This document shows, in pieces, positions 8-52,052 of a stretch of DNA of 64,000 nucleotides. Position 1 is the first letter of the stretch. Each line of letters starts with the position of its first letter. The position numbers and the translations under genes were made by a program. The stretch is from Solobacterium sp. (GTDB lineage: Bacteria; Bacillota_I; Bacilli_A; Erysipelotrichales; Erysipelotrichaceae), in assembly GCA_017469355.1 (NCBI GenBank), contig JAFUGM010000013.1, positions 1-64,000 of the forward strand, given 5' to 3'. A model generated the notes under the pieces. The model was given only the letters and a program-made list of their open reading frames with translations. It ran no database searches and had not been told where the DNA came from.

Positions 8-32
8 AAACCACCAGCTCAGCTGGTGGTTT
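8..32. repeat. Subterminal palindrome at the downstream (right) end of the IS200 element
   Basis: Perfect palindrome with 12-base arms around one central base (arms AAACCACCAGCT and its complement). It matches the position and form of the right-end hairpin that TnpA recognises on single-stranded DNA. Confidence 0.6.
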
Positions 33-117: not shown

Positions 118-540
118 TCACTCCCCGCTCAGTCTGTCACTGTCGGTTTGTTCGCGTATGTAATTCTTGATCGTTTCTTCGTTCACATTCCCTACTGTTT
201 CGCAATAGTATCCACGCGCCCAAAAGTGTCGATCGCGGTTGCGCTGCTTATACTCTGGATGTGCATCAAACAGCATTAATGCGCTTTTCCCCTTCAAGTA
301 TCCCATGAAACTGGATACGCTCATCTTTGGTGGAATTGCTACGAACAGATGTACATGATCCGCACATACCGCTCCTTCTATCAATTCCACGTTTTTCATT
401 TCGCATAATTTGATGATTGCTTGCCTTACATCCTTTCGAATTGTCCCATACATCGTTTTTCTCCGATACTTCGGTATTATTACTATGTGGTAAGTACAAT
501 TCCATTTCGTGTGTGCTAAACTCTTATTGTCCAAGGACAT
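118..540 (-). CDS. tnpA: IS200/IS605-family Y1 transposase TnpA
   Basis: Single-strand DNA transposase of the HUH superfamily. The 140-residue length is typical. The HVH motif (His62, His64) coordinates the metal, and Tyr127 in NYIREQ is the expected nucleophile that forms the 5-prime phosphotyrosine during excision and insertion. All catalytic residues are present, so the enzyme may be active. The start is chosen at the ATG preceded by AGGAGG (541-546 on the plus strand). That ribosome site partly lies in the foot of a hairpin at 543-585, which is expected to limit translation. The gene is alone in the element, without tnpB. Confidence 0.93.
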   Translation of the reverse strand: MSLDNKSLAHTKWNCTYHIVIIPKYRRKTMYGTIRKDVRQAIIKLCEMKNVELIEGAVCADHVHLFVAIPPKMSVSSFMGYLKGKSALMLFDAHPEYKQRNRDRHFWARGYYCETVGNVNEETIKNYIREQTDSDRLSGE

Positions 541-542
541 CC

Positions 543-585
543 TCCTATGATTTTCGTGGCTTCGAGACCCACTTCAATCATAGGA
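543..585 (-). promoter_or_regulatory. Hairpin in the tnpA leader that overlaps the ribosome site
   Basis: A ten-base stem (543-552 with 576-585) encloses a further GTGG/CCAC pairing. On the tnpA transcript it lies immediately 5-prime of the start codon and overlaps most of the AGGAGG. In the IS200 family a leader hairpin is known to restrain transposase translation; this role is inferred here from position. Confidence 0.55.
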
Positions 586-622
586 TTTTTGTTACTCTAT
601 GTTTCGCTTCCGCTCTCACTAC

Positions 623-643
623 TCCACCATTTCAAATGGTGGA
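623..643. repeat. Subterminal palindrome at the upstream (left) end of the IS200 element
   Basis: Perfect 21-base palindrome, TCCACCATTT then C then the complement. Its CCACC...GGTGG core resembles the right-end palindrome at 8-32, as expected for the two hairpins bound by one TnpA dimer. Confidence 0.6.
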
Positions 644-651
644 TTAATATT

Positions 652-825
652 TGGGAGCATTTAGCTTTGCGCACAAGGAAAGAACTATTCCGGGAAAACA
701 CAAAAACTAAGAAGACGATTCAGATTGTCTTTATCTCGACTTACGGTTTAAAACTAAACAAATATAGCGGACTCGTCAGTGCTCTAGTCACGCTTGATGA
801 TTTATTTACTACTGCGGAATGGTGA
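652..825 (+). pseudogene. C-terminal remnant of a DUF234-type ATPase-nuclease (fourth family copy)
   Basis: The frame ending at 825 translates to a segment containing RTRKELFREN, TKTKKTIQIVFIS, TYGLKLNKYSGLV and TLDDLF. This lines up with the last 50 or so residues of the two intact ATPases in this window, which end AFSRISKAKKSLQLTII, PYGVKDGKYSNIV, LLDDLF and TYEVEQNAYAGE, TAEDLF. No start, ATPase or nuclease motif remains on this side. The homology begins right beside the left end of the IS200 element, so the transposon may have interrupted the gene, with the 5-prime part outside the window. The homology is seen directly; the interruption is inferred. Confidence 0.7.
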
Positions 826-29778: not shown

Positions 29779-29870
29779 GAGATAACAACGGATTATCCTC
29801 CATATTTTGTTGTTATCTCGCTTTTTTATTGAGATAACAACGACTTAACAGTTATTTTTTGTTGTTATCT
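29779..29870. promoter_or_regulatory. Two inverted-repeat modules upstream of ATPase 2 (putative operators)
   Basis: GAGATAACAAC (29779-29789) faces GTTGTTATCTC (29809-29819) across 19 bp. The same pair recurs at 29831-29841 and 29861-29870, again with 19 bp between, giving a 52 bp period. The last arm abuts a likely -10 TATTAT (29875-29880). The rest of the gap from 29598 shows no gene or other feature. Confidence 0.75.
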
Positions 29871-29910
29871 GTGATATTATGCTTATGAAGAGAAAGGACG
29901 AGTTGGTAAT

Positions 29911-31350
29911 ATGTTAAATGATGTATTAGTTGGCAGAAACGAAGAAATCCAACGTTTAAACCAATGCATGAATGAGGAGCGATCCCAACTTGTTGTTGTA
30001 TATGGCCGTAGAAGGGTCGGCAAAACATATTTGATAAACAAGTATTTTAATGGATGCTTCGATTTTAAATTGACCGGAATTTATAATGCTCGAAAAGAAG
30101 TTCAGCTTCAGAATTTCGTAACCGAATTAAATCGCCAGGGAAATACAACTCTTGACTGTCCGAAATCCTGGGCTGAAGCTTTTTCTCATTTAAGGACTTA
30201 TATTGAAGAATTACCCGAAGATGAGAAACATGTCATATTTTTTGACGAAATGCCTTGGTTAGATACTGCAAAATCCGAGTTCCTCCCCTCGTTTGAGTTC
30301 TTCTGGAACGATTATGGATGCACGGTAAAGAATCTGGTATGCATAGTCTGCGGTTCTGCTACAGCATGGATGGAGAAAAAAATAGCGCAGAATAAAGGAG
30401 GCCTATTCAACAGACAAACCTGTAGCCTGTTTTTAAAGCCATTCACCTTAAAGGAAACAGAAGAATACCTTGTTTCCAGAGGAATTGTATGGTCCCATTA
30501 CGATATCAGTGAATGTTATATGATTCTAGGAGGCATTCCTTTTTATCAAAGTCTGCTGAGATCAGATCTATCACTAAGCGGAAATATTGATAATCTGTTT
30601 TTCCGTAAACGCGCAGAATTATGGGATGAATTCGACCATCTTTATCAAACTTTATTCAACAATAGTGAACTTTACATAAAAACAGTAGAAGCGTTGAGTT
30701 CAAAACGAGGCGGATTAACAAGAAAAGAAATTTCCGAAAAGACAGGAATTTATAATAACAGCAGTCTTACTGAAGTTTTAGATGGCTTGGCAGTATGTGA
30801 TTTTATTCGAAAAGAAGCATTTTATGGAAATCACAAGAGAGAATTAAGATATCAGCTATCAGATTACTACACAGCTTTCTACTTTCATTTCCTGAAAGAT
30901 AAGCATGGGCGAGATGAGCATTTCTGGAGTCATTCCTACGATAATCCAGCTCGCCGTGCATGGACTGGACTGACATTTGAACTTTTATGCAAGGATCATA
31001 TTCGTCAGATCAAGCAAAAACTTGGAATTAGTGGTGTACTATCCGAAGAATACACATGGTCTATACCATCCACAAGTGACAACGGTATCAATAAGGGAGC
31101 ACAGATTGATCTTCTAATCGATCGTCGCGATCATGTTATAAATCTTTGTGAAATTAAGTTTGTATCTAATCTATTTGAAATCGACAAATCATATAACGAA
31201 GTACTTCGCAATAAAATCGAAGCGTTTAGCAGAATATCAAAAGCAAAAAAGTCATTGCAGTTGACTATCATCTCCCCGTATGGAGTCAAGGATGGAAAAT
31301 ACAGCAATATAGTCACCAACCAGGTATTGTTAGATGACTTGTTTCTCTAA
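29911..31350 (+). CDS. Solitary DUF234-type P-loop ATPase with PD-(D/E)xK-like C-terminus (ATPase 2)
   Basis: 479 residues. Walker A is VVYGRRRVGKTYL, Walker B HVIFFDEMPWLD, and a sensor-like CGSATAWM follows. A winged helix lies around 265-310 (GLTRKEISEKTGIYNNSSL). The C-terminal domain has AQIDLLIDRRD ... INLCEIKF, the D...E-x-K core of a nuclease-like fold. This arrangement matches the archaeal-type PH/MJ ATPases related to STAND proteins. The gene stands alone, is richer in AT than its neighbours, and follows a unique inverted-repeat cluster. AAAGGA precedes the ATG by 11 nt. Function unknown; transfer is likely. Confidence 0.88.
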   Translation: MLNDVLVGRNEEIQRLNQCMNEERSQLVVVYGRRRVGKTYLINKYFNGCFDFKLTGIYNARKEVQLQNFVTELNRQGNTTLDCPKSWAEAFSHLRTYIEELPEDEKHVIFFDEMPWLDTAKSEFLPSFEFFWNDYGCTVKNLVCIVCGSATAWMEKKIAQNKGGLFNRQTCSLFLKPFTLKETEEYLVSRGIVWSHYDISECYMILGGIPFYQSLLRSDLSLSGNIDNLFFRKRAELWDEFDHLYQTLFNNSELYIKTVEALSSKRGGLTRKEISEKTGIYNNSSLTEVLDGLAVCDFIRKEAFYGNHKRELRYQLSDYYTAFYFHFLKDKHGRDEHFWSHSYDNPARRAWTGLTFELLCKDHIRQIKQKLGISGVLSEEYTWSIPSTSDNGINKGAQIDLLIDRRDHVINLCEIKFVSNLFEIDKSYNEVLRNKIEAFSRISKAKKSLQLTIISPYGVKDGKYSNIVTNQVLLDDLFL

Positions 31351-50461: not shown

Positions 50462-50587
50462 TTTTCCATAACTGCCTAAAAAACATAGTTATGGAAATTT
50501 TGGCTGATTCTTTTCAGAATATCGCGTTATAATGTGCCTATAAAATTTCCATAGCCCCAAAATTTTTATAGTTATGGAAATTTTGGC
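50462..50587. promoter_or_regulatory. Direct and inverted repeat cluster around the ATPase 3 promoter
   Basis: A 20 bp direct repeat, ATAGTTATGG followed by AAATTTTGGC, is present perfectly at 50485-50504 and 50568-50587 (83 bp apart). Partial inverted copies precede each: TTTTCCATAACT (50462-50473) and AAAATTTCCATA (50542-50553). The likely -10 TATAAT (50528-50533) lies between the two pairs, so they flank transcription start, the last one reaching to about 25 bp before the start codon. Confidence 0.75.
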
Positions 50588-50612: not shown

Positions 50613-52052
50613 ATGATTGGACGAGTTGAAGAGAAAAAATACCTCCAATCCTTATTGGAGGAAGAAGAACCACAGTTTGTGGCGGTGTTTGGACGCAGAA
50701 GGATCGGTAAGACTTACCTTGTCCGCGAAAGTTTTGATCATCACTTCACATTTCAGCACACAGGAATCAGTAATCTTTCCATCAAAGAATCCTCCAGAAA
50801 GCGCGCTCAGCTGGATAAGTTTGAAGAATCTCTCGCAGAAGCAGGTTATATCTGCCCTGGGAAGCTGGACTCATGGAATGACGCGTTCAACGCATTGAAA
50901 CAGGTTATTCTTCAATCCAATGACACAAAAAAAGTCATTTTTATTGACGAACTTTCCTGGATGGATACGAAAGACAGCGGATTGATCTCTGCTCTGGAAA
51001 GTTTCTGGAACGGATGGGCTACTGCACGCAAGGAAAAGGACATCGTGCTGATCGTCTGTGCTTCCGCCACTTACTGGATCATTGATAATATCGTAAATGC
51101 CCATGGAGGCTTGTATAACAGACTGACTGGTCAGATTCACCTGAAGCCATTTTCGCTCAAAGAATGCGAATTGTACCTTCAATCACGTAAGATCGTGTTG
51201 TCGAGACACCAGATCCTTCAGTGCTACATGATTATGGGAGGCGTCCCTTATTACTGGAGTCTTCTCAAAAAAGGGAACAGCTTGCCGCAGAATATCGATG
51301 ATCTTTTCTTCAAAGAAAACGCTCCTCTTCAGAATGAGTATGACAATCTTTACAAAGCTCTGTTCAATCATCCGGATCAGTATATGCGGATCATTGAGGC
51401 GTTAAGTACTGTTCACAATGGCATTACACGTGATGAGATCAGCCGCCTTACGGGAATTCCTACTTCCGGTGATTTTTCCAGGAAACTCACAGAGCTTGAA
51501 AACTGCGGATTCATCCGGAAATATATTCCGTATGGATATAAGCAGCGGAACTGCCTTTATCAACTAATTGATAATTACACGTTGTTCTATTTCCACTTTG
51601 TCAAAGATCAATCTCTTGACGAACATGAATGGCAGAACCTGATCAACACGCCTGCTATCACTTCCTGGAGCGGCACTGCCTTCGAACGTGTGTGCCTCGA
51701 ACATGTCCCGCAGATTAAACAGGCACTTGGCATCTCTGGCGTTCATACGGAGACAAATGCCTGGTCCTGCAAAAAGGATGAGGAAGCAGGAATCCATGGT
51801 TCTCAAATCGATTTACTGATTGTGCGTGCAGATCAGATCATTAATCTATGCGAGATGAAGTATTCTTCTTCAGACTATGTGATCAACTCCACATTCATCC
51901 GGGATATGAACAGAAAAATCTCTGATTTCAAAGCCTGCACAAAAACCCGATACGCAATTCATCCTCTTCTGATCACCACCTATGAAGTGGAACAGAATGC
52001 ATATGCCGGGGAGCTTCAGGCAATTCTGACCGCAGAGGACTTATTCTCGTAG
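50613..52052 (+). CDS. Solitary DUF234-type P-loop ATPase with PD-(D/E)xK-like C-terminus (ATPase 3)
   Basis: 479 residues, same layout as ATPase 2 and clearly homologous to it. Walker A VFGRRRIGKTYL, Walker B VIFIDELSWMD, sensor CASATYWI, winged helix GITRDEISRLTGIPTSGDFSR, and C-terminal SQIDLLIVRADQIINLCEMKYS with the D...E-x-K pattern. The ATG at 50613 has GGAGAG upstream. It stands alone between a terminator and a bidirectional terminator. The upstream repeats have a sequence different from those of ATPases 1 and 2. Function unknown; I infer DNA recognition of its own repeats. Confidence 0.88.
   Translation: MIGRVEEKKYLQSLLEEEEPQFVAVFGRRRIGKTYLVRESFDHHFTFQHTGISNLSIKESSRKRAQLDKFEESLAEAGYICPGKLDSWNDAFNALKQVILQSNDTKKVIFIDELSWMDTKDSGLISALESFWNGWATARKEKDIVLIVCASATYWIIDNIVNAHGGLYNRLTGQIHLKPFSLKECELYLQSRKIVLSRHQILQCYMIMGGVPYYWSLLKKGNSLPQNIDDLFFKENAPLQNEYDNLYKALFNHPDQYMRIIEALSTVHNGITRDEISRLTGIPTSGDFSRKLTELENCGFIRKYIPYGYKQRNCLYQLIDNYTLFYFHFVKDQSLDEHEWQNLINTPAITSWSGTAFERVCLEHVPQIKQALGISGVHTETNAWSCKKDEEAGIHGSQIDLLIVRADQIINLCEMKYSSSDYVINSTFIRDMNRKISDFKACTKTRYAIHPLLITTYEVEQNAYAGELQAILTAEDLFS

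Follow-up and report, generated by a model that had tools for sequence, protein, structure and literature searches.

The repeat array upstream of an ATPase gene in the window, by which we mean the whole 64,000-nucleotide stretch of DNA analysed here, is probably a private operator that is read by the winged helix of the very protein the gene encodes, with the protein binding as a multimer and holding its own expression down by negative autoregulation. Four elements obtained by sequence analysis underlie this proposal, i.e. the sites, their geometry, their phase relative to the promoter, and a code that connects residues of the protein with bases of the operator. Together with the rival readings weighed below, these elements lead us to regard a multimer that occupies a 26-bp lattice and regulates its own gene as the best explanation of the array.

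Table 1 Positions of the array, the promoter and the two family members in the window
Feature	Position	Strand	Description
First N19 module	29779-29789, 29809-29819		GAGATAACAAC, N19, GTTGTTATCTC; from sequence and repeat search
Second N19 module	29831-29841, 29861-29870		GAGATAACAAC, N19, GTTGTTATCT; from sequence and repeat search
Half-site 1 (>)	29781-29790	+	GATAACAACG; p6 = 29786, about -101 from the inferred transcription start
Half-site 2 (<)	29808-29817	-	Left half of conserved dyad; p6 = 29812, about -75
Half-site 3 (>)	29833-29842	+	Right half of conserved dyad; p6 = 29838, about -49
Half-site 4 (<)	29860-29869	-	Between -35 region and -10; p6 = 29864, about -23
Inferred promoter	29852-29880	+	Weak -35 TTATTT (29852-29857), 17 bp, extended -10 TGATATTAT (29872-29880)
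ATPase_2/PDC-S27 gene	29911-31350	+	479 aa; STAND/Orc1-like ATPase core, winged helix, C-terminal PD-(D/E)XK-like domain
Winged helix-turn-helix, coding part	30646-30885	+	Residues 246-325
Codons of residues 282-285	30754-30765	+	N-N-S-S, start of recognition helix; covary with p6, p7, p9 and p10
Codon of wing residue R310	30838-30840	+	Covaries with p4/p5 (R with A, K with T)
C-terminal nuclease-like domain	30943-31344	+	Invariant E357, D400, E414-x-K416
Second family member	50613-52046	+	44% identical to the first; own, different operator
Second member, dyad 1	50463-50497	.	TTTCCATAACT-13-AGTTATGGAAA; 15 bp between arms if TAAC/GTTA is the inner edge
Second member, dyad 2	50542-50584	.	AAAATTTCCATA-19-TATGGAAATTTT

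Half-sites form a uniform lattice upstream of the ATPase gene

The preliminary description had reported two arm-N19-arm modules with a period of 52 bp, and both are present where it placed them (Table 1); the two 40-mer modules are 80% identical. At a finer level, the array from 29781 to 29869 consists of four GATAACAAC half-sites in the orientations > < > <, exactly 26 bp apart. When half-site bases are counted outwards, beginning with the innermost (p1-p10 = G A T A A C A A C N), successive p6 bases are spaced by 26 bp in both pairings and, thus, form one uniform lattice. The helical regularity that had been proposed is therefore borne out, with a step of 26 bp (2.5 turns) and a repeat of 52 bp (5 turns). 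The proposed N19 pairing stood in part: its arms are real, whereas the conserved dyad is the middle pair, GTTGTTATC-15-GATAACAAC, with further half-sites flanking it on each side. In the window this middle pair reads GTTGTTATC-tcgcttttttattga-GATAACAAC, and the A/T-rich 15-bp spacer between half-sites 2 and 3 occupies 29818-29832. Because the dyad shared by the relatives corresponds to this middle pair, the N19 pairing is a complementary way of cutting the same lattice as the dyad with the 15-bp spacer.

The arrangement, rather than the word, is rare. Within the window, the four arms are the only copies of GAGATAACAAC with zero or one mismatch, except for GAAATAACAAC at 1633 (one mismatch). 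In the whole 2.69-Mb genome, GATAACAA-N10-34-TTGTTATC occurs in just these two places and the opposite pairing, TTGTTATC-N11-19-GATAACAA, only once, as the middle pair. The lone 9-mer GATAACAAC is ordinary, with 22 copies elsewhere in the genome.

The encoded protein combines an ATPase, a winged helix, and a nuclease-like domain

Compared with Pfam, the protein matched PF01637 (ATPase_2) above the cut-off; this search returned ATPase_2/AAA families only and no match to DUF234 or DUF4143. The PADLOC profile for PDC-S27 (PDLC04984) matched over the full length (residues 5-478, E 4.3e-190). Among 30 sequences, Walker A (G32-RRR-V-GKT39) is invariant except for V36, as are F110, D112, and E113 in the Walker B region and D400, E414, and K416 in the C-terminal domain. 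The AlphaFold model (pLDDT 86.6) has a STAND/Orc1-like ATPase and a winged helix, in which the recognition helix spans residues 284-295 and residue 310 lies in the wing. Its best structural matches are, in this order, the archaeal ATPases 2fna (Z 18.4) and 2qen (Z 18.3) followed by CED-4/NLR proteins (CED-4, Z 15.6) and Orc1/Cdc6 (2qby, Z 12.6). The last 160 residues folded alone resemble the restriction-type nucleases AF1548, McrBC, and MspJI, and Foldseek with the C-terminal domain alone ranked AF1548 (E 3e-4) and McrBC (E 4e-4) before MspJI, with low TM scores of 0.38-0.45. Because these structural scores are modest, nuclease activity of the C-terminal domain is a prediction.

Relatives share the geometry of the array while the words differ

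We collected the upstream regions of 80 relatives from public genomes and added those of the paralogues encoded in the same genome as the window. An inverted repeat was present in 74 of 84 upstream regions compared with 3.6 expected from shuffles, and an arm score of at least 12 was reached in 54 upstream regions compared with 0.0 in shuffles. Perfect 9/9 dyads lie upstream of 54 of 109 family genes and of 29 of 346 other ORFs at the same loci. About 10-15% of the relatives are without a recognisable dyad. The words of the arms vary by gene, e.g. TTTAGACC, TTTGGATA, TTTCGACA, AAAAGACC, TAATGACA, TAACCACG, TTTCCGCA, TTTAGAGG, and more; what the relatives have in common is the geometry, a dyad with an A/T-rich spacer of 15 bp (14-16 bp overall). 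The training half-sites were read by hand from DNA alone, the relatives are not fully independent of each other, and for the Bacteroidales group the register of the half-site is ambiguous by one base.

Each locus was scanned with its own half-site for the distances between p6 bases. In the pairing that had been searched for, this distance was 25-27 bp; the opposite pairing, which is independent in that the dyad caller did not search it, likewise gave 25-27 bp (28 cases), and between half-sites of the same orientation the distances peaked at 52-53 and 74-75 bp. All these distances are close to whole or half helical turns. Half-sites in the relatives also occur unpaired and in odd numbers, and their distances are fixed to the base even though the spacers vary.

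Two side observations concern other repeats. Upstream of two relatives (L035 and L042) a second, unrelated inverted repeat, AGTAAATATCGGTAA ... TTACCGATATTTACT, adjoins the family dyad. Among distant ATPase_2 paralogues with 22-29% identity (L009, L010, L011, L100, and L101), repeated or palindromic boxes lie 5' of the start codon, for instance AGTAAAGTATACTTTAGT in L101; because these boxes likewise precede the start codon, self-operators may exist in other ATPase_2 families too.

Half-sites keep a fixed distance to the promoter

The -10 of the window was assigned by homology, as TGATATTAT aligns with the -10 of five relatives (L014, L015, L017, L018, and L103); the predicted transcription start is near 29887. 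The register of the window half-sites matches that of relatives with confident promoters, and 5 bp separate the end of half-site 4 from the hexamer of the extended -10. A generic promoter scan of the window missed this promoter and chose TTGAGA-18-TATTTT at 29829-29858, a hit at chance level (1.1 per shuffle). Generic prediction being unreliable on AT-rich upstream regions, we used a strict -35/-10 pattern instead, TTGA(C/A)-16..18-TANNNT, which defined 36 relatives with a clear promoter. In these 36 relatives the p6 of a > half-site lies at -47 to -49 (33 counts) and that of a < half-site at -73 to -75 (26 counts), with additional half-sites at -22/-23 and -101. The set of the window (-101, -75, -49, and -23) is identical, including the orientations, to that of the relative L018. 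Judged from this fixed distance in 36 relatives, the half-sites are phase-locked to the predicted promoter and the operator lies at the gene's own promoter.

In 24 of the 36 clear-promoter relatives, i.e. about two thirds, the -10 ends about 6-7 bases 5' of the ATG and, therefore, leaderless mRNAs are predicted for them (candidates L013, L023, L027-L030, L033, L037-L040, L044, L048-L051, L058, L150, L163, L164, L166, L204, and L205). Unlike this majority, the ATPase gene of the window has a short leader.

The position of the half-sites also bears on the sign of regulation. The same binder could act in the opposite sense, with the ATPase activating its own promoter from the dyad at about -61.5 in a positive-feedback switch that turns on once triggered. 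Most relatives indeed have a single dyad whose centre, at about -61.5, falls immediately 5' of the -35 in the position of a class-I activator, and the protein has the fold of STAND regulators, MalT/NLRs among them. We nonetheless consider activation unlikely. A protein bound at the half-site at -22/-23, present in the window, L018, L015, L019, L052, L103, and L173, should block RNA polymerase, as should one bound at a dyad over the -10 or the start (L052, L054, L157, and L165), and many of the promoters have near-consensus -35 and -10 boxes that need no activator. Because a protomer at -23 would sit between the -35 region and the -10, repression is the likelier sign, one that we infer from position.

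If the repeats were instead a hairpin (an attenuator, terminator or cruciform) and not half-sites for a protein, this would agree with the single-strand fold of the array region, which is far above shuffles in structure (z = -7.6). Such a hairpin is hard to reconcile with repeats that lie upstream of the predicted start and, thus, outside the transcript, with distances kept to the base despite varying spacers, with half-sites that are unpaired or odd in number, and with arms whose sequence covaries with residues of the protein (see below); moreover, a terminator scan of the region found none. We disfavour a hairpin and consider it exceedingly improbable.

Operator bases covary with residues of the winged helix

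The preliminary description had implied ATPase 2 as the binder by proposing footprints with it. The half-sites were written down from DNA alone and the winged helices were aligned afterwards. Five rules connecting residues with bases were fixed beforehand; new relatives were then fetched and their dyads called automatically, giving 26 held-out operators. The rules predicted 228 of 254 positions correctly compared with 162.7 on average and 198 at most in 20,000 reshufflings in which operators were reassigned among proteins. Among the held-out half-sites, D282 went with a pyrimidine at p6 in 4/4 and other residues with a purine in 40/48; G284 with G at p7 in 41/44 and other residues with a base other than G in 8/8; and R310 with A at p4 in 18/18 and K310 with T in 22/28. 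K285 was accompanied by C at p10 in 4/4 compared with 3/48 otherwise, and at p9 D285 went with G in 8/10, V/I with T in 6/10, and all others with C in 32/32. The automatic caller mis-called the held-out dyads of L141 and L214. Three loci that it missed or mis-called fit the rules by eye, i.e. L135 (S-N-G-V, R310) with TTAAAGAT dyads, L206 (D-N-S-K) with CAACC half-sites at 15 bp, as the rules expect, and L141 with the likely dyad CTTTTAGATG/GATTTAGACA.

An unbiased scan comprising 59,124 residue/base tests ranked D282 first for p6, G284 for p7, and D285 for both p9 and p10, i.e. residues of the recognition helix. For p4/p5, the first rank was shared by K/R310 and the ATPase-domain residues D134 and E24. 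Because D134 and E24 associate equally strongly, the link between residue 310 and p4/p5 is less certain, and part of its signal may be shared ancestry; for D134 and E24 themselves, shared ancestry or a second contact would account for the association. Partial correlation based on differences recovered R310 at p4/p5 and S284 at p7 and lacked power at p6, p9, and p10, at which more than one residue goes with a given base. On a tree of 86 proteins built with the winged helix left out, supported independent pairs gave ~18 changes in the same direction and 0 in the opposite direction, summed over the five rules; taken by single rule, the changes were too few for significance, except at p9.

The window protein itself has N282-N-S284-S in the helix and C-A-A-C at p6-p9 of the half-site. 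The combination of S284 with A at p7 recurs in L075, L206, L207, and L208, and R310 fits the A/A inner bases, yet the protein breaks rule 1 in having N282 and C at p6. Because operator bases covary predictably with recognition-helix and wing residues, the ATPase itself is the likely binder of the array, as had been implied, and each copy likely has its own specificity; the encoded protein, in other words, appears to specify the sequence of its operator.

This covariation also bears on the idea that another host regulator binds the array and that the gene is merely its target. Operators built as inverted repeats typically belong to dedicated regulators, and it is common for phage-defence genes to have such a regulator (BrxR family, PMC9122601). 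Across phyla, however, the operator sequence tracks residues of the encoded protein; the gene stands by itself, with no conserved regulator linked to it, and the dyad occurs once in the genome. A separate regulator is, we believe, highly improbable.

Paralogues carry different operators and the gene is sporadic

The window contains a second family member with two dyads of its own (Table 1), and among the six paralogues of the window genome both helices and operators clearly differ. Large families are found in the genomes G015 (15 members; loci L095 and L103-L116) and G597 (at least 13 members; L157 and L171-L173), and the half-sites of these paralogues are mostly different. Because most paralogues have their own half-site and a matching helix, the copies mostly should not cross-regulate; L054 and L171, which share helix and half-site, could do so.

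In the sister species (L223 and L230), neither gene nor array is present at the corresponding locus, which lies between the neighbouring genes and ftsH, and within the genus the gene is sporadic. Because both are missing together in this way, operator and gene probably travel together. The same two observations, as well as the nuclease-like C-terminal domain, would suit a lattice that serves as target or end site of a mobile cassette, with the nuclease cutting or mobilising DNA at its own repeats. We consider such a cassette very unlikely, given that matching arms were not found 3' of the gene, that no target duplication was recognised, and that the array is phase-locked to the promoter and not to the end of an element.

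As further observations on mobility, within window positions 120-825 an IS200/IS605-type transposase gene (minus strand, by eye) ends beside a truncated ATPase remnant; this C-terminal remnant of the family (664-825) is 48% identical, which would fit the loss of an earlier copy through the insertion. Family members are present on plasmids of Phocaeicola, Segatella, and Butyrivibrio (H1, H2, and H3) and in phage-labelled records (H21-H23), including Wolbachia phage WO. A search of viral contigs found no close relative and more distant ones in seven phage-labelled records.

A model for autoregulation by the ATPase

In the autoregulation that we favour, we infer binding, multimer formation, and release as follows. 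The winged helix would bind each GATAACAAC half-site; major-groove contacts would let residues 282-285 of the recognition helix read the variable outer p6-p10, and the A/T-rich inner p4-p5 would be read by wing residue 310. Successive protomers, 26 bp (2.5 turns) apart, would switch face and orientation from one to the next, and assembly would nucleate at the conserved dyad near -62 before extending to -23 and -101. Once occupied, the -23 half-site would shut off the gene's own transcription, and this negative feedback would keep a potentially harmful ATPase-nuclease low. A change in nucleotide state or an infection might release the protein. With a distinct half-site and a matching helix for each paralogue, cross-regulation would mostly be avoided.

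The preliminary description had suggested binding of a dimer or oligomer with possible looping. A multimer is consistent with the alternating 26-bp lattice, its formation being an assumption of the model. Looping gained no support: the sites are adjacent at 26 bp with nothing pointing to a loop, and a spacing of 26-52 bp is too short for DNA to loop in the ordinary way. In a bolder version, which we offer as a speculation and think doubtful, the ATPase would form a nucleotide-controlled filament along the 26-bp, alternating-face lattice on its own promoter and be stored there as an NLR-like defence sentinel, in which release upon infection both frees the nuclease and induces its synthesis while the code keeps dozens of copies orthogonal.

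Comparison with known systems

In our search of the literature on DUF234, COG1672, PDC-S27, PDC-S01, and defence ATPases with autoregulation, we found no paper that describes these operators. PDC-S27 is described as a phage-defence candidate in which an ATPase is fused to a PD-(D/E)XK-type domain and is among the more abundant such candidates, with about 8,000 matches in prokaryotic genomes; in the accessible part of that paper, the mechanism is not described (PMC12988326). The window protein belongs to the same family over its whole length and has the same combination of ATPase and nuclease-type domain, and the accessible part of the PDC-S27 description does not mention an operator, specificity of the winged helix or autoregulation (PMC12988326). 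Our analysis assigns the winged helix of PDC-S27 a putative function and gives its members a predicted target sequence.

The fold of ATPase and winged helix is shared with the archaeal STAND/AAA+ ATPases 2fna (SSO1545) and 2qen (PABY2304) and with the Orc1/Cdc6 initiators on DNA (2qby and 2v1u), which bind DNA through the winged helix. Unlike all of these, the window protein adds a nuclease-like domain and, in contrast to Orc1/Cdc6, its sites form an alternating 26-bp lattice in its own promoter instead of lying in an origin of replication. Self-specific operators, often present as a tandem pair, are also a feature of controller (C) proteins of restriction systems and of autoregulated toxin-antitoxin modules, where they restrain a harmful enzyme; the binders there are separate small DNA-binding proteins with no ATPase and no such lattice. 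BrxR repressors with a WYL domain likewise control a defence system through inverted repeats in a promoter, but BrxR is encoded by a separate regulator gene (PMC9122601), whereas in our case the DNA-reading domain is part of the effector ATPase. Correlation of recognition-helix residues with operator bases is established for dedicated transcription factors, e.g. MerR (PMC5045206), and we found no such case for an ATPase-nuclease in the literature. The code proposed here can be read from residue to base and tested by one point mutation, and the family would offer a ready set of orthogonal one-gene regulators. While self-operators are already known, the new elements are a defence ATPase as the predicted reader, a compact code, and an alternating 26-bp lattice phased to the promoter; this suggests that an NLR-type ATPase with a nuclease-like domain can recognise DNA in a sequence-specific manner.
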